Source: an uncultured Winogradskyella sp. (GTDB taxonomy: Bacteria > Bacteroidota > Bacteroidia > Flavobacteriales > Flavobacteriaceae). Taken from it: a DNA stretch of 64,000 bases. Location: assembly GCA_913055905.1 (NCBI GenBank), contig CAJXLB010000003.1, positions 62,001-126,000 of the forward strand. The letters are read 5' to 3'. Below, piece after piece: positions 20,520-44,723 of this stretch (the stretch's first letter is position 1; each line of letters opens with the position of its first letter). The position numbers were made by a program, and so were the translations under genes. The notes beneath the pieces were generated by a model. It saw nothing but the letters and a program-made list of their open reading frames with translations. It made no database searches and had not been told where the DNA came from.

Positions 20520-21110
20520 CTATTTATGCTTTAAAATGTCTATCCACTTCTGACTCAAATGTTGACTCAGCAAATCTGAAATGGCTTCTGCGGTTATGTC
20601 GTAACTCCAGCCTTCATCAACTTTAGAAATGGAAAGACCTGATAATAATTTATCGTTCTTTATCACCTCTAGAGCTAATTTAGAGTCCTTCACTTGCTTT
20701 CTAATGGACTCAACCACTTTATCGCTAATAGACTCTGGCAATTCTATTTGCGTATTCTCTCCAATTTTAGTGACCACCAGCTTCACTATCTCGGTGTACA
20801 ATTCTGGCGTAAAGGACGCTTCTATGTTATTCTTGAATACCGCATTGAACAATTTGATAAAATCATTCTTTACTGAAATCTCTAAGTCTCTTCCCGCCTG
20901 CCCTAAGGCAACTTTACCTTTTTCCAAAGTTTGGTTGGCCTCTTCATTTGCCCTAGCAAGAAGCTCTTCTTTTTCGGACTCAGCATTTTTAATGAGCTGT
21001 GATGCTTTTTCCTCAGCATCTCTGATAATTTGCTTTGCTTCTTCCTCGGCTTTATCAATAGCTTCGGATTTTACTTTAGCAATTAAACCGTCTAAGCTGT
21101 TCTCACTCAT
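20520..21110 (-). CDS. ntpE: V-type ATPase subunit E (peripheral stalk)
   Basis: A 196-residue protein. Residues 1-80 are a long charged coiled coil (AEEEAKQIIRDAEEKASQL, NEEANQTLEKG) and the rest is a globular C-terminal domain. It forms the peripheral stalk that holds the head against rotation. A subunit G/H partner is not seen in the operon. Its ATG overlaps the stop of subunit B by 4 bp. Confidence 0.93.
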   Translation of the reverse strand: MSENSLDGLIAKVKSEAIDKAEEEAKQIIRDAEEKASQLIKNAESEKEELLARANEEANQTLEKGKVALGQAGRDLEISVKNDFIKLFNAVFKNNIEASFTPELYTEIVKLVVTKIGENTQIELPESISDKVVESIRKQVKDSKLALEVIKNDKLLSGLSISKVDEGWSYDITAEAISDLLSQHLSQKWIDILKHK

Positions 21111-22435
21111 GCGTTCTGGATTTTTAATATCTTAAAGTCTTCCTTATTTGGCCAATAGCTCTCTACAAGGTCTGATGATAACCCTACCTCTTCTTTTTTG
21201 AAATGCGTAGCCAATATTTCCCAGCACAGGTCTAAGGCATCTTCTAGCTCGAGATATCTAAACGGGTCCATTAATTCTTTCTGAAAGGTCTTACGGTAAT
21301 CTAAAAGCCGCAGGGAATAATCATCTTTAACGGAGCCAAATTTCTGTGCTTTTACGCGTTCTTCGGCTTCTGAAAGAAGTCTCGCCATAGCATTCATAAT
21401 ACTGCGATGATCGTCGCGTGTTTTGTTGTTTACCTGTTGCTTCAGTCGACTCAAAGACCCAAATAATTCGAGATAACCATCCTTCATGAAAAATTGACCT
21501 TCCGTAATGTAACCTGTGTTATCTGGTACAGGGTGCGTAACATCGTCCATGGTTGTTACCCCTAAAATCGTTAAGCTTCCAGAACCCTCAATATCAGCAG
21601 CCTTTTCGTATCGGCTTGCCAACTGTGAGTATAAATCACCTGGATACCCTTGATTCGCTGGAATTTGGTCTTGAGCATTGGCGACTTGTCTTAAATAATC
21701 TGACCATTGGGTCATATCGGAAAGCAACACAAATACATTCTTGCCCTGTAGCGCAAATTGTTCTCCCACGGCAAGAGCTAAATCGGGAACCATAAGACCC
21801 TCTACGATTGAATCTCTGTGCGTATGGACAAACATTATGGTCTTGCTTTTACTTCCAGCGTCTTCTATGCGTTCTTTAAAATAATGGTATTCATCGTATT
21901 TTAATCCTACACCACCTATAATAATTACGTCAGCATCGGTTTGGGTAGCGATATTGGCCAGTAGCCTGTTATACGGTTCTCCTGCTCTAGCAAAAATTGG
22001 AATCTTTTGGGAACGCACCAAGGTGTTAAACACATCAATCATGGGCACTCCTGTTCTAATCATATTCTTTGGAATAAGGCGCTTAACAGGATTAATAGAC
22101 GGCCCAGCCACTCTTATCATATCAGAAACCAATTGCGGACCACCATCGATAGGCTGTCCGTTGCCAGAGTACACTCGTCCCAACATTTGATCCGAAAAGC
22201 CAACTTGTACTGGATGCCCTAAAAAACGAATTTTACAATCTGTGGAGACGCCAAAACCACCGCCAAAGAGCTGCAGTGTTACCTTACTACCGTTCAAGGC
22301 AATAACTTGTGCAAATGCCTTTTGGCCGTTTGGATAGATAACCTCAGCTAGTTCCTTATTGTGAGCGTCTTTGGCCTCAATGGTAAGGATAGCTCTTCCG
22401 ATACTATCAATATTCTCATACGTTTTCCTTAACAT
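21107..22435 (-). CDS. ntpB: V-type ATPase subunit B (non-catalytic head subunit)
   Basis: A 442-residue regulatory head subunit. It has the ATPase fold (FARAGEPYNRLLANIATQT, SDMTQWSDYLRQV, GYPGDLYSQLASRYEKA) but no P-loop lysine, as usual for B subunits. It alternates with A in the hexameric head. The gene overlaps the end of the A gene by 20 bp, so the two are translationally coupled and probably made at 1:1. Confidence 0.97.
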   Translation of the reverse strand: MLRKTYENIDSIGRAILTIEAKDAHNKELAEVIYPNGQKAFAQVIALNGSKVTLQLFGGGFGVSTDCKIRFLGHPVQVGFSDQMLGRVYSGNGQPIDGGPQLVSDMIRVAGPSINPVKRLIPKNMIRTGVPMIDVFNTLVRSQKIPIFARAGEPYNRLLANIATQTDADVIIIGGVGLKYDEYHYFKERIEDAGSKSKTIMFVHTHRDSIVEGLMVPDLALAVGEQFALQGKNVFVLLSDMTQWSDYLRQVANAQDQIPANQGYPGDLYSQLASRYEKAADIEGSGSLTILGVTTMDDVTHPVPDNTGYITEGQFFMKDGYLELFGSLSRLKQQVNNKTRDDHRSIMNAMARLLSEAEERVKAQKFGSVKDDYSLRLLDYRKTFQKELMDPFRYLELEDALDLCWEILATHFKKEEVGLSSDLVESYWPNKEDFKILKIQNA

Positions 22436-24161
22436 TCGCTTTTTGTTTTACCAGATTTATAATTTTGGTCTTTTGCTTTTCGAATTTAGGGTCGTCAAGT
22501 TTTAAATAATTCCAATCTAAAAAGGCTTGTCTTAAAAAATTGAAATGAGACCTGATATCATCTTTGGTTTCTATGTGAAGTGGTGCATCTATTATATACT
22601 TTATTAAGTCGAACATGATGCGCAAACGTTCGGGATTTGTAACGCCATCCACATCATGAAAACTATTCTGTTGAAGAAAAACAGCATCCAATAATTCTGA
22701 TTTTTGGTAGGCGATATAAGCCTCGTTGGTGATACCGCGTTCTCCCATAAGCAAAAGGTTGGAAGCTATGGATTTTCCTTCTTTGAGCACATCCTTTAAA
22801 TACTTTACCTCCTCTTCTGAAATTAATGAAGGGTATTTAGAATTACTATCCAAACGATCAATAGCTGGATATTTTCGTGCATCGGACAACTCACGTGATA
22901 GGCCCAAAAAAGCACCTGTACTCAATAATGTAGCCTGTGTTACGGGCTCATCGAAATTACCACCAGCTGGCGATACCGTACCAATTATACTCAAGGAACT
23001 TTTTTGGCCATTTGGTAATATTTCTACACCAGCCCTATCATAAAAAGCCGAAATTAAAGTTGATATATACATAGGAAAGGCTTCCGGTCCAGGTATTTCT
23101 TCCTTACGACCAGAGGTTTCCCGAAGCGCTTGCGCCCAGCGTGAGGTGGAGTCTGCCAAAATCAAAACATCAAGCCCTTGTTTTCTGTAGTATTCTCCAA
23201 CGGCCGTAGCCAAATAAACAGAAGCTTCTCTCGCAGCAACAGGCATCGAAGAGGTATTACCAACGATATAAGTTCTGTCCATCAATGATTTTCCAGTTCT
23301 TGGATCAATAAGCTCAGGAAAATCCTTGAATACTTCTACCGCTTCACCAGCACGCTCACCACATGCCGCAATTATAACAACATCTGCCCTAGAATGCTTG
23401 GCTATACTATGCTGTAACACCGTTTTTCCCGCTCCGAATGGACCTGGACTACAAGCGGTACCACCATAGGCTATTGGAAAAAGCGCATCTAAAATTCGCA
23501 TTCCTGTGGGCAAGGTCTCCTTGGGAACAGAACGCTTATGAAAAGGCATCGGTTGTTTCACAGGCCAATCGAAAGTCATGTTTAAGGACTTTGTCTGACC
23601 TTTACCATCTTTAATGACAGCTATAGTATCGGTAATGGTGTAGTCGCCTTCCGAGACAATAGATTCTACAATGTAATCTTCGGTAAGGCTAAACGGCACA
23701 AAAATTTTGTGTTCAAACATTTTTTCTGGAACCGTGCCCAATACGGAAGCACCACTGACCGTATCTCCCGTTTTAACTTTAGGCGTAAAGTGCCATTTTT
23801 TAGATTCATCCAATGGCGCAACCACCATGCCGCGTTCTAAAAACCACTCTTTTTTTACTAATTCGTATAAAGGGTTTTGAAGACCGTCAGTTACCGTACC
23901 TAAAATTCCAGGACCCAATCTCACGGACAAAGGAAGACCTGTAAATTCCACTTCATCGCCGATTTTCATCCAAGAGGTATCTTCAAAAACTTGAAGGAAT
24001 ACTCGTTTTCCAGGTTTTACGTCAATAACCTCAGCTTTCAGGCGCTTTCCATCTTCAAGCACAATATAGGCAACCTCTCCATTCATAACAGCCCCTTTGG
24101 TGTTTTCTACACCTACCAAGGATTCATTGACACTGATAACTTTTCCTTTTGCTTTTTCCAA
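22416..24161 (-). CDS. ntpA: V-type ATPase catalytic subunit A
   Basis: A 581-residue catalytic subunit. The P-loop GPFGAGKT is at residues 240-247, followed by the typical IIAACGERAGEAVEVFKDFPEL and NTSSMPVAAREASVY motifs. It contains the A-subunit-specific insertion (non-homologous region, about residues 110-195) that distinguishes it from F-type beta. It hydrolyses or makes ATP in the cytoplasmic head. It follows the Usp-TPR gene by 27 bp and leads the structural genes in the order A, B, E, DUF2764, D, I, K, which differs from the usual Bacteroidota order with E and DUF2764 first. Confidence 0.98.
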   Translation of the reverse strand: MEKAKGKVISVNESLVGVENTKGAVMNGEVAYIVLEDGKRLKAEVIDVKPGKRVFLQVFEDTSWMKIGDEVEFTGLPLSVRLGPGILGTVTDGLQNPLYELVKKEWFLERGMVVAPLDESKKWHFTPKVKTGDTVSGASVLGTVPEKMFEHKIFVPFSLTEDYIVESIVSEGDYTITDTIAVIKDGKGQTKSLNMTFDWPVKQPMPFHKRSVPKETLPTGMRILDALFPIAYGGTACSPGPFGAGKTVLQHSIAKHSRADVVIIAACGERAGEAVEVFKDFPELIDPRTGKSLMDRTYIVGNTSSMPVAAREASVYLATAVGEYYRKQGLDVLILADSTSRWAQALRETSGRKEEIPGPEAFPMYISTLISAFYDRAGVEILPNGQKSSLSIIGTVSPAGGNFDEPVTQATLLSTGAFLGLSRELSDARKYPAIDRLDSNSKYPSLISEEEVKYLKDVLKEGKSIASNLLLMGERGITNEAYIAYQKSELLDAVFLQQNSFHDVDGVTNPERLRIMFDLIKYIIDAPLHIETKDDIRSHFNFLRQAFLDWNYLKLDDPKFEKQKTKIINLVKQKANVKENV

Positions 24162-24188: not shown

Positions 24189-25331
24189 TTACTGCCCTCT
24201 AAGTTTTCTGGCTTCTTCTTCAATTTTAGAATACCATAGGCGCTCCTTGATTTCATTAGCACTCTTACGATATAATGATGCTTTTTCTGGCTCTCCAATT
24301 TTATCGAACAACTTGGCAATGGCACGATACGCCGGCACATGCATGGTATTAATACCTAAACTGGCCTTATACTGTTCTATTGCAACCTCATATAAACCAT
24401 CTTTTTCGAGTTGTTCACCAGCTTCATAGAGCGCTTCAAAATCTTTAATATCTGTTTGCAGTTGAAGGCTTATTACATCTTGGGATTTTAAGGTAAGAAA
24501 TGAACACGGCACCTCGCGAATCACTTTTTCCGTAACGCTTCCAACAATAAGCCTATTTAGGCCAGAACGGCCAGAAGTACCCATGATGAGTAAATCTATA
24601 TGCTTATCCGAGATGGTATTCAATATTTCTTTAGCTGGATTTCCCGAGCGCTCTTCACGCGACCAATTGACGCCTTCTAAATTTAATTTGTCCAAAAAGG
24701 CATCAAACTCTTTGGTGTGAGCTTGCAGGCGTTCTTCATTTTCTTTCTCCAATTCCTCCTTGGAACTAAACCAGGAAGAGGTTGTTGCTTCGGATACACT
24801 TAAAATTATAAGTTCAGCATTGAATCGTCTGGCAAAAATCAAGGCATTTTTGAGTGCTCGCTCCGAGGGGCTAGAAAAGTCTACAGGACATAAAATTTTA
24901 GCTATACTTAAGCTACTGTTTTCCTTTATAACCATAACAGGCTTTTCACTCCTTTGAATAATACGCTCAGTTGTGGTGCCAAGTTTGAATTTTTCACCTG
25001 CATTAGTCTCCCCAGAACCAACCAATATCATGTTGGCATGAACCGATGATGCTGCCATTACAATTTGATCATGAGCCACACCATATTTTATTAGAGGTGC
25101 TTCTACTTTTACACCGCTGTCGCGCAGAGTTTGTGCCGTTGCCTCCAGTCTTGATTTAGCAGTATCATCCAAAAGGTCTTTAACTTTTGGGTTAACTATA
25201 TCGTTAGGCAATACGTGCATTGGCACAATGGTAGATTTGAATGAAGACGCCAAGGACGCAGCTACCGACTCCAATTGTTTTGAAGTGGAGGCGAAATCCT
25301 GGGCAAACAAAATTTTGTCTAAGATTGTCAT
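24189..25331 (-). CDS. Universal stress protein: two Usp domains plus C-terminal TPR
   Basis: A 380-residue cytoplasmic protein. Residues 1-140 and 146-285 are two Usp domains. The nucleotide-binding G-2x-G-9x-G(S/T) motif is clear in the second (GTSGRSGLNRLIVGS) and partly altered in the first (GSGETNAGEKFKLGTT). Residues ~300-375 form TPR-like helices (YEAGEQLEKDGLYEVAIEQY, AIAKLFDKIGEPEKA), a protein-docking addition. It is the first gene of the V-ATPase operon, 27 bp before subunit A. A role in controlling or assembling the ATPase in response to energy state is an inference from position only. A second Usp gene lies divergently upstream. Confidence 0.9.
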   Translation of the reverse strand: MTILDKILFAQDFASTSKQLESVAASLASSFKSTIVPMHVLPNDIVNPKVKDLLDDTAKSRLEATAQTLRDSGVKVEAPLIKYGVAHDQIVMAASSVHANMILVGSGETNAGEKFKLGTTTERIIQRSEKPVMVIKENSSLSIAKILCPVDFSSPSERALKNALIFARRFNAELIILSVSEATTSSWFSSKEELEKENEERLQAHTKEFDAFLDKLNLEGVNWSREERSGNPAKEILNTISDKHIDLLIMGTSGRSGLNRLIVGSVTEKVIREVPCSFLTLKSQDVISLQLQTDIKDFEALYEAGEQLEKDGLYEVAIEQYKASLGINTMHVPAYRAIAKLFDKIGEPEKASLYRKSANEIKERLWYSKIEEEARKLRGQ

Positions 25332-25680: not shown

Positions 25681-26475
25681 ATGGTAAAAATTCTCGTTCC
25701 TATAGATTTTTCAGATACATCAAAAAATGCCTTGCGCTATGCCTTATCATTATTTGAAGGGAATAAAATTGAAATTACGATAGTGCATATATATGGCGCG
25801 CATTCTACAGCTCTAATGATGAAATCTATAGATGGTATTCTTATAAGGGATGCCGAAAACAAATTGAACGATTTAATTAAAGATATGCAAACCGAAGCTC
25901 CTGATGTAGTATTTAAAACCAAACTAGCAAAAAATTATGCTGTTTCTACAATTGCGACAATGGGAGATAGTGGACATTTTGATTTTATTGTTATGGGCAC
26001 CAAAGGAGTTAGCGGGCTAAAAGAAGTCTTCATGGGTAGTGTGGCTGGCGGCGTAATTTCTAAAACTTCAGCGCCAGTTATCGTAGTACCCTTAGATTAC
26101 AAATTTACCAACTTGGAAAATGTGGTTTTTGCTCTTGGCGACACTAACATCTCATCAAATTCTACCCTTGCGCCTTTGCGCAAGATTGTAGAAGCTCATA
26201 AGTCCAAGCTTGAAGTCGTGCATATTTCTAATTCTAGTGAGCCCGATTTAAATCCAACCTTGGAGTCCCTCGCTGACTTAAATCCAAAAATTTCCAACAA
26301 AAAGGGTGACGGTGATTTAAACCAACAGCTTAACGTCCACATTCAAAATCAAGATACCGATTTGCTGTGCTTGCTTCGTACAAAAAAGGATTTTTTTGAT
26401 AGAATTTTCAGCAATAGTGTAACCTTAAAACAAACCTTTAACAGTCCGGTGCCTTTACTTGTTTTACATAATTAG
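25681..26475 (+). CDS. Universal stress protein with degenerate second domain
   Basis: A 264-residue Usp-family protein. The first domain (residues 1-140) starts with the typical KILVPIDFSDTSKNALRYAL and carries the ATP-binding motif GTKGVSGLKEVFMGS. The second (about 145-264) keeps the fold but lacks the glycine motif. It is divergent from the Usp-TPR/V-ATPase operon and convergent with ppdK, with which it shares a terminator. Its position between two energy-metabolism operons suggests a role under energy stress; this is inference. Confidence 0.92.
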   Translation: MVKILVPIDFSDTSKNALRYALSLFEGNKIEITIVHIYGAHSTALMMKSIDGILIRDAENKLNDLIKDMQTEAPDVVFKTKLAKNYAVSTIATMGDSGHFDFIVMGTKGVSGLKEVFMGSVAGGVISKTSAPVIVVPLDYKFTNLENVVFALGDTNISSNSTLAPLRKIVEAHKSKLEVVHISNSSEPDLNPTLESLADLNPKISNKKGDGDLNQQLNVHIQNQDTDLLCLLRTKKDFFDRIFSNSVTLKQTFNSPVPLLVLHN

Positions 26476-26563: not shown

Positions 26564-29293
26564 TTACATAGTTGATTTTACAGCTGCTTGCGCAGATACC
26601 AACCGTGCAATAGGCACTCGATATGGAGAACAACTCACATAATCCATTCCTGTGTTGTAACAGAACTCCACAGAGGAAGGTTCACCTCCATGCTCACCAC
26701 AGATACCAACTTTTAGATTAGGTTTAATACTGCGGCCACGTTCTGTTCCAATCTTAACCAATTGTCCAACGCCTTCTTCGTCAATAACTTCAAAAGGATC
26801 TACTTTTAGTATACCTTTCTCAATGTAAATTGGGAGGAATTTACTGGCATCGTCTCTAGAATAACCAAAGGTCATTTGCGTGAGGTCATTTGTACCGAAG
26901 GAGAAGAAATCTGCCTTTTCTGCAATAAGATCTGCTATAAGTGCAGCTCTTGGCACTTCAATCATCGTTCCTACAAGAAATTCGATACGATCATTACGTT
27001 CTACAAAAATTGTTTCAGCAGTAGACCTAATGATACCAGCTTGCATTTCAAATTCCTTAACCGTTCCTACTAAAGGCACCATAATTTCAGGTTTACAGAT
27101 GATACCGCGTTCCTTTAAGTTAAGTGCTGCTTCAATGATAGCTCTTGTCTGCATCTCCGTAATTTCAGGATAGGTATTACCTAAGCGACATCCTCTATGA
27201 CCGAGCATTGGATTGAACTCTTCCAGCTCTGCCACTTTATTCTTAACGGCTTGTAAAGGAATGTGCATATCCTCAGCTAGTTCTTTTTGAGTGGCTAATT
27301 GGTGTGGCACAAATTCGTGCAACGGTGGATCTAACAATCTAATAGTTACCGCAAGACCATCCATAGCTTCAAAAATCCCTTCGAAATCAGAACGCTGCAT
27401 TGGAAGAAGCTCATCCAAGGCTTGTTTACGACCTTTAAGGGTATCTGCTAGAATCATTTCACGCATAGCCTTAATCCTATCAACCTCAAAGAACATATGC
27501 TCAGTTCTGGTTAAACCGATGCCCTGAGCTCCAAAATTACGTGCAATTTGAGCGTCTTTTGGTGTATCTGCATTGGTACGGACTTTCATTTCGCCATATT
27601 TATCAGCTAACAACATGAGTTCGGCAAATTCTCCACTCAGTTCAGGTTCCATGGTAGCCACTTTACCTTCGATAATATTACCAGTAGAGCCATTTAATGA
27701 AATCCAATCCCCTTCATGATACTCATGACCATCGACAGTTAAGGTTCTATTCTTATAATCGATTTTTAATGCTCCAGCACCAGAAATACAGCATTTACCC
27801 ATGCCTCGAGCTACAACAGCAGCATGTGAGGTCATACCACCACGAGCCGTTAAAATACCCTTGGCAATGTTCATACCTTCCAAATCCTCTGGCGATGTTT
27901 CTATTCTAACAAGAATACTACTCTTGAATTTGTTAGCTTCATCTGCAAAAAAGACAATTTTACCTGTTGCGGCACCAGGAGATGCTGGCAAACCTTGAGC
28001 GATAACTTTAGCACGTTTTAAGGCTTTTGGCTCAAATATTGGGTGTAATAATTCGTCCAATTTATTAGGCTCGATAAGCAATAAGGCTTCTTTTTCGTTT
28101 ATCATTCCTTCTTTGAGCAAGTCCATGGCAATTTTAACCATAGCGGCACCTGTTCTTTTACCATTTCTCGTTTGTAAAATCCACAGTTTGCCATCTTGAA
28201 TGGTGAACTCCATATCTTGCATGTCGCGGTAATGCTTCTCTAAAATATCTTGATATTCATTCAATTCTGCGAAGATTTTAGGCATAAGCTCCTCTAATGA
28301 CGGATAATTTTCCGCACGATCATTTTCTTCTATCATGGCAAGCTCTGCCCAACGTTGGGACCCTAACTTAGTAATCTGTTGTGGTGTACGTACACCAGCT
28401 ACAACATCTTCACCTTGAGCGTTAATAAGGTACTCTCCGTTGAATATATTTTCTCCAGTACCAGCATCACGGGTAAAACAAACACCTGTTCCAGAATTTT
28501 CGCCCATATTACCGTAAACCATAGCCTGAACATTTACAGCGGTTCCCCAATCTGCAGGATATCCATGCATGTTGCGGTAATAAACAGCCCTATCGCCATT
28601 CCAGCTATTAAATACGGCTATAATCGCGCCCCAAAGTTGATCCCATGGATTGGTAGGAAAATCGTGTCCTGTTCTCTTTTTTACAGCGTCTTTAAAATCA
28701 TAGACCAAGTCCTTTAAATCCTGAACCGTAAATTCAGTATCCAACTCAATACCGCGTTTATGTTTGAGATGCTCCATAATTTCCTCAAAAGGATCAATGT
28801 CATCTTTAGATTCTGGCTTCATGCCCAAGACAACACCACCATACATTTGGATAAATCTACGATAGGAGTCCCACGCAAACTGTTCATTATTTGTGCGCTT
28901 GGCCAAACCAAGCACCACCTCATCGTTTAATCCTAAATTGAGAACCGTGTCCATCATTCCTGGCATAGAAACGCGGGCTCCGGAACGTACGGAAATGAGA
29001 AGTGGGTTTTCCTTATCGCCAAACACAGCTCCCATTTGGGATTCAATATTGGCAATAGAGTCTTCTACTTCCTTTTTAATAAGTTCTATAACGGCCTCTT
29101 TTCCTAGGCTATTATATTCTGTACAAACTTCTGTAGTGATTGTAAAACCTGGTGGAACGGGAATTCCAATTGCGCTCATTTCTGCTAGATTAGCGCCTTT
29201 TCCTCCAAGCAAATTCTTCATTTTGCTATTTCCGTCTGCAGTTTTGTTTCCAAACCTGTAAACTCGAGTCTTAGTTTCTTCGAGTACTTCCAT
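26564..29293 (-). CDS. ppdK: Pyruvate, phosphate dikinase
   Basis: A 909-residue enzyme that interconverts pyruvate, ATP and phosphate with PEP, AMP and pyrophosphate. The N-terminal ATP-grasp domain opens with LGGKGANLAEMSAIGIPVPPG. The phosphotransfer histidine is H490 in MTSHAAVVARGMG, preceded by the threonine that is regulated in plant enzymes. The C-terminal PEP domain has the catalytic cysteine C865 in GICGEHGG. The spacing between H490 and C865 equals that in known PPDKs; the ~35 extra residues lie before the histidine. In fermenting cells it can run from PEP to pyruvate to gain ATP. It has its own promoter and an FNR/CRP-like site upstream. Confidence 0.97.
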   Translation of the reverse strand: MEVLEETKTRVYRFGNKTADGNSKMKNLLGGKGANLAEMSAIGIPVPPGFTITTEVCTEYNSLGKEAVIELIKKEVEDSIANIESQMGAVFGDKENPLLISVRSGARVSMPGMMDTVLNLGLNDEVVLGLAKRTNNEQFAWDSYRRFIQMYGGVVLGMKPESKDDIDPFEEIMEHLKHKRGIELDTEFTVQDLKDLVYDFKDAVKKRTGHDFPTNPWDQLWGAIIAVFNSWNGDRAVYYRNMHGYPADWGTAVNVQAMVYGNMGENSGTGVCFTRDAGTGENIFNGEYLINAQGEDVVAGVRTPQQITKLGSQRWAELAMIEENDRAENYPSLEELMPKIFAELNEYQDILEKHYRDMQDMEFTIQDGKLWILQTRNGKRTGAAMVKIAMDLLKEGMINEKEALLLIEPNKLDELLHPIFEPKALKRAKVIAQGLPASPGAATGKIVFFADEANKFKSSILVRIETSPEDLEGMNIAKGILTARGGMTSHAAVVARGMGKCCISGAGALKIDYKNRTLTVDGHEYHEGDWISLNGSTGNIIEGKVATMEPELSGEFAELMLLADKYGEMKVRTNADTPKDAQIARNFGAQGIGLTRTEHMFFEVDRIKAMREMILADTLKGRKQALDELLPMQRSDFEGIFEAMDGLAVTIRLLDPPLHEFVPHQLATQKELAEDMHIPLQAVKNKVAELEEFNPMLGHRGCRLGNTYPEITEMQTRAIIEAALNLKERGIICKPEIMVPLVGTVKEFEMQAGIIRSTAETIFVERNDRIEFLVGTMIEVPRAALIADLIAEKADFFSFGTNDLTQMTFGYSRDDASKFLPIYIEKGILKVDPFEVIDEEGVGQLVKIGTERGRSIKPNLKVGICGEHGGEPSSVEFCYNTGMDYVSCSPYRVPIARLVSAQAAVKSTM

Positions 29294-29348: not shown

Positions 29349-29394
29349 TAAAGTTATAGGCTGAGACTAAGAAATAAGCTGACAATTATCAGCT
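29349..29394 (-). promoter_or_regulatory. FNR/CRP-like site and -7 box of ppdK
   Basis: On the minus strand the palindrome AGCTGATAATTGTCAGCT (29377-29394) has perfect 6-bp arms and a core TGAT-N4-GTCA. It is followed by TAACTTTA (29349-29356, 7 of 8 to TAnnTTTG). The centres are 33 bp apart, identical to the spacing in front of pflB. This is where a class II activator dimer would sit. The leader would be about 50 nt. Confidence 0.6.
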
Positions 29395-29713
29395 AATACT
29401 AATATTTTTAGGTAATGATAAGTGGTTCAAATATCCAGAAGTACTATTTGTTTGCGATTAGTATGTGCCAATATTTTTTCTGATTCAGTTTCAGATAAAC
29501 AAAATCTAAAAGGTCAATTTTAAAGAGCCAATAAAATCTACCATTCTAAAACTGTGAAATAGTAATCTCTAAATCAGATTTAAGTGAAAATAGACTAAAC
29601 TGTTATGAGCAAATGTGTGTCACTATAAAAGAAGAAAAGCAGGAATAATCGGCTATTTATCCAGATTCCTTTTTCGGGTTGAATTACGGATGCTCAATTA
29701 GGATTCATAGACA
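29395..29713. other. Intergenic region without a gene
   Basis: About 320 bp between the ppdK control region and the end of the OFA transporter gene. I see no open frame with coding character and no clear terminator for the transporter operon. A short perfect palindrome TAAATC-A-GATTTA lies at 29570-29582, and TCTGA/TCAGA arms at 29479-29495 (7-nt spacer). Either could be protein sites. Confidence 0.4.
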
Positions 29714-30985
29714 TTAACATGCCTGAGCCGTATCCTCTATGGACGACTTCCTACTTTTTGCATAGGCCAAATTCACAGAGCGTTTCATAAGTAACGACAC
29801 TACAAATGCGATCATAAATAAACCTGAAAACACCTTTAAGGTAATACCCAATGACCCTGTGGCACTTTTAACCATATCGTAAATTGTAGGACCAATAACT
29901 CCTGCCAAAGCCCAGCCTGCGAGTACCAAACCATGGATTGCACCAAGTTGTTTGGTTCCGAATAAGTCTCCCAAAAATGCTGGTAAGGTAGCAAAACCAC
30001 CACCATACATGGTAATTACGGTAAACAGCACCACTAAAAACAACAGCTCCATTGTAATTTGCGGCAAGAAATAAAAGGCTAAAATCTGAAAGGCGAAGAA
30101 AATCACATAGGTATTGGGACGACCTAAATAATCCGAAAGACTAGACCAGAGTATCCTTCCCAATCCATTGAAAACACCAATGAGTCCGACCACACCAGCA
30201 GCTTGCATAGGTGTATAATTCAATTTTTCTTGCATCATAGGACTTGCAGCTGCGATGATAGCAATACCACAAGTAATGTTAATAAACATCATAATCCAGA
30301 TGTAATAAAAGCGCCTTGAGCCCAGTGCCTCTTTCGCTGTTATATTGGAAATGTCAGCTTTGACGGTTACGGATTCCTCAGTATTGAAGCCAGTAGGTGC
30401 ATAGCCTTTTGGTGGACGTTCAATATATCTTGAAGAAGCCAAAATTAAGACCATATAAATGCCACCTAAAAGATAAAAGGCGTTAGAAATGCCAACGGTT
30501 TCAAAAAATGATTGCATGATTGGACCAAACAGTAATGCCGAAAAACCAAAACCCATGATGGCCATACCTGTGGCTAAGCCGCGCTTATCGGGAAACCACT
30601 TCACCAATGTGCTTACAGGTGTAATATAACCTAGCCCTAATCCGATACCACCAATTACTCCGTAGCATAGATAAAACAAAACGAGAGATTCTAGATGCAC
30701 TGCCAGACCAGAACCCAAAATTCCGACACCATAAAATATACCAGCTGTAGTCCCGCTTACTTTAGGACCTACTTTTTCTACCCAAGGTCCCAGAAACGCT
30801 GCAGAAAAACCAAGAAATAATATGGCAAGTTTGAAGGCCCATTTAATAGTACTGCCTTCAACATCAAAAACCTCTTTAACGGGATTTGTAATTACAGAAT
30901 AGGCATATACAGAACCAATAGCAATATGAATCCCTATTGCCGATAATGCTATGAGCCAACGATTTTTAAGTTTTGCAGTTGCCAT
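29714..30985 (-). CDS. OFA-family MFS anion transporter next to pyruvate formate-lyase
   Basis: A 423-residue membrane protein with about 12 transmembrane helices of the major facilitator type. The start KNRWLIALSAIGIHIAIGSVYAYSV and the central GLGLGYITPVSTLVKWFPDKRGLATG are typical of the oxalate/formate antiporter (OFA) family. It lies 25 bp after pflA, so the likely operon is pflB-pflA-transporter. In enterobacteria the FocA channel holds this position; here an MFS carrier probably exports formate, or moves lactate or pyruvate. The substrate is inferred from context. The protein ends in DTAQAC with a terminal cysteine, which is unusual. Confidence 0.88.
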   Translation of the reverse strand: MATAKLKNRWLIALSAIGIHIAIGSVYAYSVITNPVKEVFDVEGSTIKWAFKLAILFLGFSAAFLGPWVEKVGPKVSGTTAGIFYGVGILGSGLAVHLESLVLFYLCYGVIGGIGLGLGYITPVSTLVKWFPDKRGLATGMAIMGFGFSALLFGPIMQSFFETVGISNAFYLLGGIYMVLILASSRYIERPPKGYAPTGFNTEESVTVKADISNITAKEALGSRRFYYIWIMMFINITCGIAIIAAASPMMQEKLNYTPMQAAGVVGLIGVFNGLGRILWSSLSDYLGRPNTYVIFFAFQILAFYFLPQITMELLFLVVLFTVITMYGGGFATLPAFLGDLFGTKQLGAIHGLVLAGWALAGVIGPTIYDMVKSATGSLGITLKVFSGLFMIAFVVSLLMKRSVNLAYAKSRKSSIEDTAQAC

Positions 30986-31010
30986 GATTTTGAGTTTTTA
31001 GGAATTGAGA

Positions 31011-31760
31011 TTAGTTAATGCTAATTTGTTTAAAATAGGGTTCAAGTATGGTTTGGGCCTTGTGCAGTTCTTCCTTTGTATTTTCCCTGGCGTCTTTGAG
31101 TTGGTATTCCCAACCTAAAGCTTCCCATTTATGAACGCCCAATTTATGATAGGGCTGAATTTCCAATTTTTCTACTGTTTTGTAGTCTTTGAAATAAGCA
31201 CCCAAGGATTCTAACAAATTTGGTTTGTCCGTTAAACCAGGAATTAACACATAGCGCAACCACATAGGCTTACCAGATTTTTCACGATACTCAGAAAAAT
31301 TGAAGGTGGTTTGATTATTCTTCTGGCCAGTGATGTGCTCATAGCCTTCTTCCGTCATGTGCTTAATGTCCAGCATCACCAAATCCGTATACTTATCCAT
31401 CAATTCCATAGCAAAATGATTTAAAATTCGGCCATTGGTATCCAGTGCGGTGTGGATGCCTTCGGCTTTGAGTTTTTTAAACAAAGGAATCAAAGCCTTG
31501 GCTTGTAATAGTGGTTCACCTCCAGATATGGTAACACCTCCTTTTTTGCCAAAATACGGCTTGGACTTCATTATGATGTCAAACAAGGCATCAGTGGTGT
31601 AGGCTTTACCGCCTTCCATAGCAATGGTGTCTGGGTTATGACAATAAAGACATTTTAATTTGCAACCTTGCAAAAAAATGACACATCTTACACCAGGACC
31701 ATCGTGCGTTCCAAAGGTTTCAATGGAATGAACTTGTAATATGTTATCTTGAGTTTTAAT
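31011..31760 (-). CDS. pflA: Pyruvate formate-lyase activating enzyme, apparent ATT start
   Basis: A radical-SAM activase that installs the glycyl radical on PflB. The cluster motif is CKLKCLYC, preceded by the family's N-terminus HSIETFGTHDGPGVRC. That N-terminus is in frame but has no ATG, GTG or TTG in front of it back to the in-frame TAG at about 31800. The first usual start codon (TTG at 31673) would delete the conserved N-terminal segment just before the cluster motif. The best candidate is ATT at 31758-31760, giving 249 residues (family length about 245). It lies after a strong terminator that follows pflB. Low expression would suit an enzyme needed only in catalytic amounts. An assembly error or a recent start-codon mutation cannot be excluded. 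Confidence 0.9.
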   Translation of the reverse strand: MKTQDNILQVHSIETFGTHDGPGVRCVIFLQGCKLKCLYCHNPDTIAMEGGKAYTTDALFDIIMKSKPYFGKKGGVTISGGEPLLQAKALIPLFKKLKAEGIHTALDTNGRILNHFAMELMDKYTDLVMLDIKHMTEEGYEHITGQKNNQTTFNFSEYREKSGKPMWLRYVLIPGLTDKPNLLESLGAYFKDYKTVEKLEIQPYHKLGVHKWEALGWEYQLKDARENTKEELHKAQTILEPYFKQISIN

Positions 31761-31775
31761 GCGCTTTTGAATTAA

Positions 31776-31811
31776 AAAAGCACCTAGAACCTTAAAACCC
31801 TAGGTGCTTTT
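31776..31811 (-). terminator. Intrinsic terminator/attenuator between pflB and pflA
   Basis: Transcribed on the minus strand, the 12-bp stem (AAAAGCACCTAG with CTAGGTGCTTTT) closes a 12-nt loop and is followed by a run of six T. It begins 10 bp after the pflB stop and ends about 16 bp before the inferred pflA start. It should end most pflB transcripts and let only a fraction continue into pflA and the transporter. Confidence 0.9.
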
Positions 31812-31820
31812 ACTGACTAA

Positions 31821-34046
31821 TTACATAGACTCATGGAAGGACCTTGAAATCACTTCCAATTGCTGCTCTCTTGTTAAACGAACGAAGTTAACGGCATATC
31901 CAGATACCCTTATGGTCAATTGAGGATATTCTTCCGGATGCTCCATAGCATCTAGAAGCGTCTCCTTATCCAACACATTTATATTGACATGCTGGGCATT
32001 ATTGTGGAAATAGCCATCTAAAATACTGGTTAAATTATCTACACGTGTTTCTATATCTGAGCCTAAGGATTTAGGTACTATAGAAAACGTATTGGAGATA
32101 CCATCTTGTGCATCTTCATAATTAATCTTTGCTACCGAATTTAATGAAGCGATGGCTCCCATTTCGTCACGACCGTGCATGGGATTAGCACCTGGTGCAA
32201 AAGGTACACCTAGGGCTCGTCCATCTGGAGTAGCACCTGTCTTCTTACCATAGACCACATTAGATGTAATGGTTAAAACAGATAAACTTGGCTCAGCTTC
32301 CTTATATATTGGGAATTGCTTTAATTCATAATTGAAATCGGCAACAGCCTGAGCTGCTAAGCTATCCACTCTATCGTCATCATTACCATATTTTGGGAAT
32401 TCACCTTCTATCTCAAAATCTATTGTTAGACCATCTTCATTCCTAATTGGTTTTACTTTGGCATATTTTATAGCCGACAAGGAATCAGCCACAATTGATA
32501 AACCGGCAATACCATAAGCAATATTTATGTGCGGATTGGTATCGATTAAGGCCATCTGTGCTTTTTCATAATAGTACTTATCGTGCATATAGTGAATAAT
32601 ATTCATAGAATCACTGTAGACACGTGCAATTTCTTGCATGGCTATTTTAAAGTTGGTCATTACGGTATCAAAATCGAGATACTCATCCTTATATTCCGGA
32701 ACACCGTCAAATATTTGCTCTCCCGTTAACTCACATCGTCCACCATTAATGGCTAAAAGTAGTGTTTTGGCCAAGTTTGTACGAGCACCAAAGAATTGAA
32801 TGGACTTACCTAAATCTTGATGGGATACACAACAAGCGATACCATAATCATCAGAACCTCTACTATTTCGCATCAAGGTATCGTTCTCAAATTGTAGTGA
32901 AGACGTTTCTATAGCTACCTTTGCACAGAACTTTTTGAAATTCTCTGGTAAATCTTCAGACCAGAGAACCGTCATATTTGGTTCTGGTGAAGGTCCTAAA
33001 TTATAGAGCGTATTTAAGAATCGGTAAGACGTTTTGGTCACCTTGGTACGGCCATCGCTAAACATACCACCAATAGCTTCAGTTACCCAAGTTGGGTCAC
33101 CTGCAAAAATTTCGTCATAGGCTTGCATTCTTAAATGCCTTACCACGCGAAGCTTCATTACAAACTGATCTATATATTCTTGAGCTTCTTCTTCGGTAAT
33201 TAGCCCTTCTCGTAGATCGTTTTCAATAAAAATATCCAAGAAGGTTGAAACGTTACCAAGTGACATGGCCGCACCATCCTGCTCTTTTACGGCTGCGAGA
33301 TAAGCCATATACGTCCACTGAACAGCTTCTTGAGCGTTTTCCGCTGGTCTAGATAAATCTAAACCGTACTTAGATCCTAAAATCTTCATTGATTTTAGAG
33401 CTTTGATTTGCTCAGAGACTTCCTCTCGTAAACGAATGACCTCATCAGTCATTGGTCCGGTAATTGCCTCTAAATCCTCTTTCTTTTGCTCAATTAAAAA
33501 ATCAAGACCATAAAGGGCTAAACGACGATAATCTCCAATAATACGTCCTCTTGCATAATTGTCTGGCAAACCAGTAAGAATACCCAAGGAGCGGTATTTT
33601 TTAATTTCGGCATTGTAAGCATCAAAAACACCATCGTTATGGGTTTTAACATACTTAGAAAACAATTCGGTTATTTTCTCATTTGGCGCTACGCCATGCT
33701 CGGATAGTGCTTTTTCTACCACCTTGAACCCACCAAAAGGTTTCATGGCACGTTTTAAAAGCTCGTCGGTCTGCAATCCCACAATGACTTCGTTGCCCTT
33801 ATCAATATAACCAGGTCCAAAGGCCTCGACCGTAGAGATCGTATCCGTATCTAAGGAGTGAACACCGTTATTGGCGCGTTCTTCTTCCATGGCCTTAAGG
33901 CAAATGTCCCAAATGGCCTTGGTCCGCTCTGTTGGTCCAACCAAAAAAGAAGATGGTCCTGTGTATGGTGTAATATTCTTAAACACAAAATCCCTTACGT
34001 CAACGGTTTTTGTCCAATTTCCACCTATGAATTCTTTTACTTCCAT
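31821..34046 (-). CDS. pflB: Pyruvate formate-lyase (formate C-acetyltransferase)
   Basis: A 741-residue glycyl-radical enzyme that cleaves pyruvate with CoA to acetyl-CoA and formate without oxygen. The catalytic cysteine pair is C405-C406 in [10 protein letters not shown]. The radical glycine is G716 in RVSGYAVNF, 25 residues from the C-terminus as in E. coli. It heads an operon with pflA and an OFA transporter. Upstream there is a perfect -7 box and an FNR-like palindrome in class II position. Glycyl-radical enzymes are destroyed by oxygen, so its presence implies hypoxic or anoxic phases in the life of the host. Confidence 0.98.
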
Positions 34047-34098
34047 GATTTAATGTATTTAGTAGTCATAAAAAGAAAATTTCTCATTTTCTCGTTTA

Positions 34099-34142
34099 CA
34101 AAATTAAAGGCCGGCTTGTCCAATTTTGATGATATTTATCAT
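34099..34142 (-). promoter_or_regulatory. FNR-like site and -7 box of pflB
   Basis: On the minus strand ATGATAAATATCAT (34129-34142) contains TGAT-N4-ATCA, the core of an FNR box. It is followed 22 bp later by TAATTTTG (34099-34106), a perfect TAnnTTTG -7 box. The centre-to-centre distance is 33 bp, placing the activator near -41. The predicted leader is about 45-50 nt. The rest of the 334-bp gap to the acyl-CoA ligase shows no gene. Confidence 0.68.
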
Positions 34143-43502: not shown

Positions 43503-44723
43503 ATGAAATCTTTAATCCAACTTGCTATTCTTTTCGCTATTTGCTTCAGCTCTGCCCAAACAAATACCGAAGTTGTTCTTTTTGACCTAGAGATCAGACC
43601 GAGACTGGCTTTATCAAATTTCAAAAATATATCCACTAATGAGGGTTACGACAATCAGCCTTCTTTTCTAAGTGAAACCCGTATCCTTTTTGCATCTACA
43701 CGGAATGGCCAAACCGATATTGCTCAATATTTTGCCGATTATGATTCTAAAACTTGGGTTAATTCATCCTCTGGCAGTGAGTACTCTCCACAGAAAAGAC
43801 CTGCGAAAAATGAAGTGTCCGCAGTTCGCTTAGACTCAGATGGTAAACAAGCTCTATATGCTTATAATTTGGACAATGGCGAAGCTTCATTACTTATAGA
43901 CGATTTAGTCGTTGCCTATTATGTTTGGGTTAATGAGACGACTATTGCTTCAGCCGTTATCGAAGATGAACAACTAAATCTTTATGTGAGCAACCTACAA
44001 ACAGGAACGCATACAAAATATGCCGAAAACGTAGGACGCTCCATACATTTGATTCCCGATTCAGAAATAGTAAGTTTTATCTCAAAAACCAACGAAAAGC
44101 AATGGGAGATCAAGTCTCTAAATCCAAAAACGGGAGCAACTAGGTTACTAGCCAATACTATAATTGGAGTTGAAGATATGTGTTGGCTAAACCAAAACAC
44201 CATACTTGCCGGCAAAGACGCTATCCTTTATAAATTGACACTAAAAAGCGACTATAATTGGCGCAAGGTGGCCGATTTATCCCAATATGATGTATCTAAT
44301 ATTTCGCGCCTCGCCGTCAATATAACTACAACAAAGCTTGCTATGGCTGTAGAATTGAAACCAGGTGATAAAACAGGTATAGGCACCACTGACCCTTCCG
44401 TAGCCGAAAGTATAGTACAAAAGCAGCTCGATGCCTACAACAAACGTGATATTGATGCATTTATGGCTACCTATTCAGATAATATTAAGCTTTACACCTA
44501 TCCCAATACACTAAGAACAGGTGATAGACGTCAAATGAAGGCTTCTTATGAATATCTTTTTGCCAACACGCCGGATTTAAAGGCAGAAATTAAGAACCGT
44601 ATTGTTTTAGGCAATACCGTTATCGATGAAGAACACGTTATCATGAATGGGCAAAAATTTAAAGCCGTTGCCATATATGAGGTTGAAAATGGACTAATCA
44701 CTAAGGTCACTTTTATACAATAA
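43503..44723 (+). CDS. Exported TolB-like propeller fused to an NTF2/SnoaL-like domain
   Basis: A 406-residue exported protein. It has a signal peptide ending near CFSSAQ. Residues ~35-300 resemble a TolB/WD40-like propeller (NQPSFLSETRILFASTRNG, IHLIPDSEIVSFISK). Residues ~305-406 form an NTF2/SnoaL-type domain (VQKQLDAYNKRDIDAFMATYSD, GRDR-like TGDRRQMKASYEYLF). The two parts are joined by a GTGIGTTDPS-rich linker. Its function is unknown. The combination of a propeller with a SnoaL domain is unusual. It stands alone after the operon terminator. Confidence 0.78.
   Translation: MKSLIQLAILFAICFSSAQTNTEVVLFDLEIRPRLALSNFKNISTNEGYDNQPSFLSETRILFASTRNGQTDIAQYFADYDSKTWVNSSSGSEYSPQKRPAKNEVSAVRLDSDGKQALYAYNLDNGEASLLIDDLVVAYYVWVNETTIASAVIEDEQLNLYVSNLQTGTHTKYAENVGRSIHLIPDSEIVSFISKTNEKQWEIKSLNPKTGATRLLANTIIGVEDMCWLNQNTILAGKDAILYKLTLKSDYNWRKVADLSQYDVSNISRLAVNITTTKLAMAVELKPGDKTGIGTTDPSVAESIVQKQLDAYNKRDIDAFMATYSDNIKLYTYPNTLRTGDRRQMKASYEYLFANTPDLKAEIKNRIVLGNTVIDEEHVIMNGQKFKAVAIYEVENGLITKVTFIQ

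Follow-up and report, generated by a model that had tools for sequence, protein, structure and literature searches.

Probable operators of an FNR-like activator at a fixed 33-bp spacing before pflB and ppdK in an uncultured Winogradskyella

The 64-kb stretch analyzed here (positions 62001-126000 of contig C3 in the 2.95 Mb assembly G000 of an uncultured Winogradskyella sp., referred to below as the window) carries on its minus strand the genes for two fermentation enzymes, pyruvate formate-lyase (pflB) and pyruvate phosphate dikinase (ppdK). Each gene is preceded by a short palindrome and, downstream of the palindrome, a −7 box (Table 1). A first-pass annotation of the window had proposed that the palindromes lie at an identical distance from their boxes. 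Both centre-to-centre distances are indeed 33.0 bp, and the letters and coordinates it gave are correct. The palindromes it described are present, but their symmetry is imperfect at two places: the pflB site lacks self-complementarity at its two middle bases, and in the ppdK site one pair (T/G) is mismatched. The window holds seven TGAY-N4-RTCA sites, and for each we sought a TAnnTTTn box 28-39 bp downstream. The box stands at 33 bp for the pflB and ppdK sites and at 29 bp for the site at 44522, and the remaining sites have none within that range. The frequency of TAnnTTTR in the window is 0.0014 per position and strand.

For CRP and FNR, −41.5 is the classical position of a class II activator. 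According to a transcript-start map of Flavobacterium psychrophilum (PMC9723704), the TAnnTTTG box spans −12 to −5. If transcription starts at the same distance in Winogradskyella, the box centre would lie at −8.5 and a palindrome 33 bp farther upstream would be centered at −41.5, so that the class II placement suggested by the first-pass annotation would hold at both promoters.

The pflB and ppdK sites are two of about 40 such sites in the genome. Scanning the assembly for TGAY-N4-RTCA followed after 22-24 bases by TAnnTTTR returned 40 matches, against one for the reversed pattern. When the gap was allowed to vary from 9 to 39, we obtained 66 place-gap pairs, of which 32 fell at gap 23 (centre distance 33), four at spacing 32, four at spacing 34 and 26 over the other 28 spacings (~0.93 per gap). 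The Poisson chance of at least 32 matches where 0.93 are expected is about 1e-37. One palindrome (C2:356536) is counted at two spacings in the merged histogram, as the two scans gave different boxes.

To assess conservation, we searched named genomes with PflB and used the best 80 of 584 loci. Thirty-seven of these come from Flavobacteriaceae or close kin (including two metagenome-assembled genomes named only Bacteroidia) and 43 from other Bacteroidota; with the window added, there were 38 flavobacterial pflB upstream regions. The strict palindrome with TAnnTTTR at 33 occurs in 23 of the 38. Three more, from Lutibacter, have the palindrome with the box at 32; four have TAAC in place of TGAY with the spacing of 33 kept, and one (Sediminicola) has an altered box at 33. 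For ppdK, the palindrome and the box at 33 are found in all 13 loci where the gene lies near pflB (window included). A search of 24 further genomes yielded 10 with ppdK, all with the palindrome and seven with the box at 33, giving totals of 23/23 and 20/23 upstream regions, respectively. Strict sites at 33 are rarely found elsewhere in the 37 flavobacterial loci (641 kb): 22 precede pflB, 12 precede ppdK and only two lie at other places. None precedes pflB in the 43 loci (682 kb) from other Bacteroidota. Palindrome and spacing are thus kept before both genes in most relatives, which is what the first-pass annotation had asked to be checked.

In an alignment of 32 pflB sites, the information content is 1 to 2 bits in each column of the palindrome and no more than 0.63 bits in spacer columns 20-35, save for one G at about −17 (0.94 bits); the stretch from about −33 to −29 is rich in T. 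TGA is preceded by C in 16 sites, by A in 15 and by G in one, and it is followed by C in 17 and by T in 15.

The excess of pattern matches extends to whole genomes. Thirty-six flavobacterial genomes gave 995 matches and 98 for the reversed pattern, compared with 74 and 27 in 13 genomes of other Bacteroidota. In two Aestuariibaculum genomes, from which the flavobacterial gap counts come, 54 of 63 matches have gap 23. The 74 matches of the other Bacteroidota are spread flatly over gaps 22, 23 and 24 (21, 28 and 25). In a draw of 119 genomes of the order, judged by eye, the excess was present across much of the family itself (only weakly in some members, e.g. 13 vs 6) as well as in certain other families, and it was absent from the small-genome families. 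That the two promoters share palindrome and spacing by coincidence in an AT-rich genome might be suspected, given a short motif whose core recurs so often within the window. We rejected this explanation, which the spacing peak, the conservation in relatives and the taxon control together make hardly conceivable.

For 36 of the 40 sites we examined the downstream genes, which were picked for their length and proximity; as some of them begin 200-470 bp away from the site, single assignments may be wrong. Besides pflB and ppdK, they encode the fused cbb3 oxidase CcoNO, HemN, formate-tetrahydrofolate ligase, triosephosphate isomerase (tpiA), malate dehydrogenase (mdh), polyphosphate kinase 2, a flavoprotein reductase (Pyr_redox_2), CBS-domain proteins, Hsp20, MlaE, an ABC1-type kinase and several universal stress proteins. 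An adenosylcobalamin-type ribonucleotide reductase also follows a site; it is cut by the end of its stretch and its model scores below cut-off. A terminal oxidase, anaerobic haem synthesis and fermentation would be expected in the regulon of an FNR, and predicted sites stand before CcoNO, HemN, pyruvate formate-lyase and pyruvate phosphate dikinase. In F. psychrophilum, oxygen limitation raises the cbb3 oxidase and haem-synthesis enzymes (PMC9723704). Most likely, an FNR-like protein switches on the set of about forty promoters when oxygen is low.

A gene for such a protein (fnr, Table 1) lies just past the window, so the Crp/Fnr regulator that the first-pass annotation needed is present in the genome. 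It diverges from a gene for a metal P-type ATPase (TIGR01494 over cut-off; by its position ccoI-like), after which come ccoNO, a gene resembling ccoP (below cut-off) and ccoG. The protein matches the domains of the Crp/Fnr superfamily (PF00027, 69.9 bits, cut-off 27.5; PF13545, 51.4 bits, cut-off 27). The host genome encodes seven cyclic-nucleotide-binding (cNMP) domains and three proteins with the Pfam Crp-type helix-turn-helix (HTH); two of the four cNMP-domain proteins that lack a Pfam HTH match carry a Crp-like HTH at their end, with a different recognition helix. Among these five Crp-like proteins, an E..xxIR recognition helix is found only in the FNR-like protein and in a fusion of a receiver with a Crp-type protein. 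The helix keeps the Glu and Arg that read TGA in CRP and FNR, and it has Thr at the position of CRP Arg180. That position has been tied to the base before TGA (PMC1274295).

The distribution of the FNR-like protein parallels that of the sites. Orthologues with 44-71% identity were found in all 36 flavobacterial genomes searched, while among the 13 other Bacteroidota the best listed match has 30-37% identity in 12 and is absent in one. Within the 80 pflB loci the sole match is a 30%-identical protein in L060, and one scan of viral contigs for a relative gave none. Four cysteines, Cys4, Cys7, Cys53 and Cys106, are invariant in 37 of 37 flavobacterial sequences. The N-terminal CxxC pair occurs in none of the eleven best matches examined from other Bacteroidota (L177-L186, L190). 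A phmmer alignment with FNR of Aliivibrio fischeri spans residues 4-222, including the HTH, and pairs Cys4, Cys7 and Cys106 with C20, C23 and C122 of FNR. The cluster cysteines of FNR are those at positions 20, 23, 29 and 122. We propose Cys53 as the natural fourth ligand; from the jelly-roll topology it would presumably sit on the strand next to that of Cys106.

The protein could also bind these sites in response to a signal other than oxygen acting through an iron-sulphur cluster, for instance nitric oxide, disulphide redox or haem. The missing counterpart of FNR Cys29 speaks for such a signal, and thiol chemistry is made possible by a second pair in the protein's own numbering, Cys29/Cys59, which is Cys at both positions in 27 of 31 sequences and Ser at both in four. 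This co-variation breaks in three of six more distant orthologues, which keep only Cys59, and we did not use it as evidence. With three invariant cysteines at FNR ligand positions and the usual low-oxygen set among the downstream genes, we regard a different signal as unlikely, though a serious contender.

The second protein with this type of recognition helix is the fusion of receiver, cNMP domain and HTH encoded on contig C4 (Table 1), a two-component output that could be the main activator of pflB and ppdK, with the FNR-like protein serving only the cbb3 and haem genes. The two helices are alike (ATETFIR in the FNR-like protein, ATESAIR in the fusion), and contig C4 holds 17 of the 40 sites, many of them around the fusion gene. 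Many of the sites near that gene look different, however: their centres are not restricted to A and T, and their 3' side reads RTCATT. By eye, the sites of pflB and ppdK resemble the cbb3/hemN type instead. Across 36 genomes, the number of RTCATT sites tracks the number of fusion genes (Spearman rho 0.60, p 1e-4) more closely than the remaining sites do (rho 0.38, p 0.02); the per-genome fusion-gene counts behind both correlations are "at least" values. Sediminicola luteus has both palindromes at 33. Its four Crp-type HTH proteins over cut-off include none that is receiver-sized (one 346-aa frame lies below cut-off), and among the three of the four ends examined, only the FNR-like one has a recognition helix of this type. 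The RTCATT split and S. luteus make the FNR-like protein the better candidate for the pflB and ppdK promoters, and a leading role of the fusion there appears quite improbable. As a second Crp-type regulator, the fusion probably reads a variant motif and takes part of the set of about 40 sites. In some relatives, more than one copy of the receiver-Crp fusion is listed.

The FNR-like protein may also act on its own gene. In 22 of 31 loci (the host and 21 orthologous loci), the region that separates fnr from the ATPase-type gene contains a single palindrome, and the N-terminus of the divergent gene is alike in 21 of these 22. On the ATPase side, an NAnnTTTG box stands at exactly 33 in 22 of 22 loci; on the fnr side, a TAnnTTTR box stands at exactly 19 in 19 of 22. 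A spacing of 19 would place the protein at about −27.5 on the fnr promoter, which suggests repression. One operator would thus activate the divergent ATPase gene and repress fnr.

Overall, we estimate a probability of roughly 0.85 that the palindromes before pflB and ppdK are operators of the FNR-like activator of the Crp/Fnr superfamily encoded beside the cbb3 genes, acting as follows. At declining oxygen, Cys4, Cys7, Cys53 and Cys106 would hold an iron-sulphur cluster that lets the dimer bind [AC]TGAY-N4-RTCA. Placed at −41.5, the dimer would touch RNA polymerase in the class II manner and activate promoters with the −7 box TAnnTTTR. The high-affinity oxidase, anaerobic haem synthesis and fermentation (pyruvate formate-lyase and pyruvate phosphate dikinase) would then be turned on together. 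We infer binding, cluster, activation and repression from the arrangement of sites, spacing, downstream genes and invariant cysteines, and oxygen as the signal from the target genes and the cysteines. The first-pass proposal of one Crp/Fnr-family regulator for both fermentation enzymes at low oxygen gains support from site conservation and the presence of the regulator. We give about even odds to the broader view that the Flavobacteriaceae possess an oxygen-sensor branch of their own, with CxxC, Cys53 and Cys106 as [4Fe-4S] ligands, a site that is neither that of FNR nor that of CRP, a core low-oxygen regulon with a rigid distance from −41.5 to TAnnTTTR, and a shared operator that turns the ATPase gene on and fnr off.

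Several observations weigh against the FNR-like protein as the oxygen-responsive activator at these operators. Six of the 38 pflB upstream regions lack a recognisable palindrome-plus-box pair (two of them still carry a strict palindrome) and one further region, with a spacing of 34, is doubtful; three of 23 ppdK regions lack the box at 33, and three of the 36 sites examined have no 60-aa open reading frame (ORF) that begins within about 900 bp. As a control, the reversed pattern is too lenient: it undercounts the background even in Bacteroidota without the regulator (74 vs 27), which is why the spacing histogram is the better control. As to the shared operator, a strict site near fnr is missing from nine of 31 loci, and the box on the ATPase side never has the consensus first T (22/22). 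The FNR-like protein scores 91.2 bits with the NCBIfam Fnr model, well under the cut-off of 228; FNR ligand Cys29 has no counterpart in it, leaving the four-ligand set of FNR incomplete and the cluster less than certain. The receiver fusion of the same genome has a similar recognition helix. Finally, the flavobacterial paralogues L188 and L189 (of relatives G019 and G018) have an N-terminal CxxCx4C and a Cys that matches C122 of FNR in position, a layout nearer to FNR than that of our candidate, which makes them rivals in those relatives. A Pfam Crp-type HTH search of the host genome gave no CxxCx4C paralogue of this type. These paralogues are about 250 aa long, and a match of that size is listed in many flavobacterial genomes.

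Table 1 Features of the pflB-ppdK locus and of the candidate regulators (window positions unless a contig or locus is named)
Feature	Position	Strand	Details
pflB operator (predicted)	34129..34142	minus	reads ATGATAAATATCAT; core TGATAAATATCA at 34130-34141; putative centre −41.5
pflB −7 box	34099..34106	minus	TAATTTTG; fits published flavobacterial consensus TAnnTTTG
pflB, formate C-acetyltransferase (pyruvate formate-lyase)	31821..34046	minus	741 aa; TIGR01255, 1126.8 bits, cut-off 994.2
pflA, pyruvate formate-lyase activating enzyme	31011..31673 (ORF as listed)	minus	TIGR02493, 250.3 bits, cut-off 231.75
Major facilitator superfamily (MFS) transporter, L-lactate / oxalate-formate type, between pflA and ppdK	29714..30985	minus	NF049980, 402.3 bits, cut-off 320
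ppdK operator (predicted)	29377..29394	minus	reads AGCTGATAATTGTCAGCT; core TGATAATTGTCA at 29380-29391; putative centre −41.5
ppdK −7 box	29349..29356	minus	TAACTTTA
ppdK, pyruvate phosphate dikinase	26564..29293	minus	909 aa; TIGR01828, 1311.6 bits, cut-off 843.45
Universal stress protein gene beside ppdK	25681-26475	plus	divergent from the next
Universal stress protein gene beside ppdK	24189-25331	minus	divergent from the previous
V/A-type ATPase subunit genes	21107-24161	minus	near the fermentation genes
fnr, FNR-like protein	C3:127350-128027 (L001:1489-2166)		225 aa; 1.35 kb beyond window end
fnr/ATPase operator region	L001 2166-2300 (C3 about 128027-128161)		
Receiver-cNMP-HTH fusion protein	L003:664-1713 (C4 151335-152384)		near universal stress protein genes with RTCATT-type sites

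Other genes of the locus deserve mention. The pflA ORF as listed enters the TIGR02493 profile at position 22, and the real start is probably upstream, near 31758-31760, at a non-AUG codon. We compared the start region (window 31674-31760, minus strand) with those of 37 relatives. The codon ten before the conserved HSIESFGTHDGPG is ATC in 24 loci, ATT in eight, ATG in two, CTA in two, ATA in one and GCA in one, and in 12 of the 38 loci, the window included, there is no ATG, GTG, TTG or CTG between the preceding stop and HS. AUC and AUU starts are rare, and such a start would limit the activating enzyme. In 25 of the 37 flavobacterial loci, pflA is followed by a gene for an MFS transporter of the lactate / oxalate-formate type; of the 12 loci with ppdK, nine have this gene between pflA and ppdK. 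No strict palindrome was found near the universal stress protein genes of the window, unlike several such genes on contig C4.

The analysis yields a candidate regulator with its site, a constant geometry and, in a single genome, about forty candidate promoters. Class II activation was worked out in bacteria with a promoter unlike the TAnnTTTG of this family, for which a predicted regulon is now at hand. The Flavobacteriaceae are major degraders of algal polymers in the sea. If Cys53 is a ligand, there would be a second way of building the FNR cluster.

In a full-text literature search that left supplements and most subscription journals unreached, titles and the starts of abstracts described no FNR-like regulon or site in Flavobacteriaceae, nor a system by which the family senses a drop in oxygen. 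Crp/Fnr-family regulators are known from other Bacteroidota. For instance, MalR of Bacteroides (PMC8510549) and BT4338 (PMC6989115) serve carbon use and carbon limitation rather than a low-oxygen set, and the Crp/Fnr homologue of one Flavobacteriales metagenome-assembled genome was assigned to MalR and carbon sensing (PMC8510549). HcpR/HcpR2 of Bacteroides, Porphyromonas and others likewise belong to the family, and the delta-proteobacterial HcpR variant, wyTTGACnnnnGTCAArw, has a TGAC-N4-GTCA core. They differ in their common motif, GTAAC-N4-GTTAC, and in their target hcp (PMC1274295), and HcpR is reported to be haem-dependent in P. gingivalis (PMC12750200). The HcpR2-type assignment was rejected on the motif, which our sites do not match; hcp itself was not searched for. 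A CRP-type site, TGTGA-N6-TCACA, was also rejected on the motif, with G before TGA in just one of 32 pflB sites. We take MalR and BT4338 to be one protein.

A close comparison can also be made with FNR of Escherichia coli and A. fischeri (5cvr, 5e44). The FNR site is TTGAT-N4-ATCAA, and the base before TGA is T in FNR and G in CRP. The first-pass annotation had invoked this box, to which the 32 pflB sites do not conform: TGA is preceded by A or C in 31 of 32 and followed by T or C, so the flavobacterial site, [AC]TGAY-N4-RTCA, is not the E. coli FNR box. The FNR-like protein further differs from FNR in lacking Cys29, with Cys53 invariant instead, in the −7 box TAnnTTTR at its putative promoters and in falling below the NCBIfam Fnr cut-off. 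It resembles FNR in being alignable over residues 4-222, HTH included, with three cluster cysteines aligned, in its probable class II position, and in predicted downstream genes for oxidase, haem synthesis and fermentation. As far as sequence can tell, what is well supported is a system of FNR-like class II activation with a family-specific site, a family-specific promoter geometry and, probably, family-specific cluster ligands.

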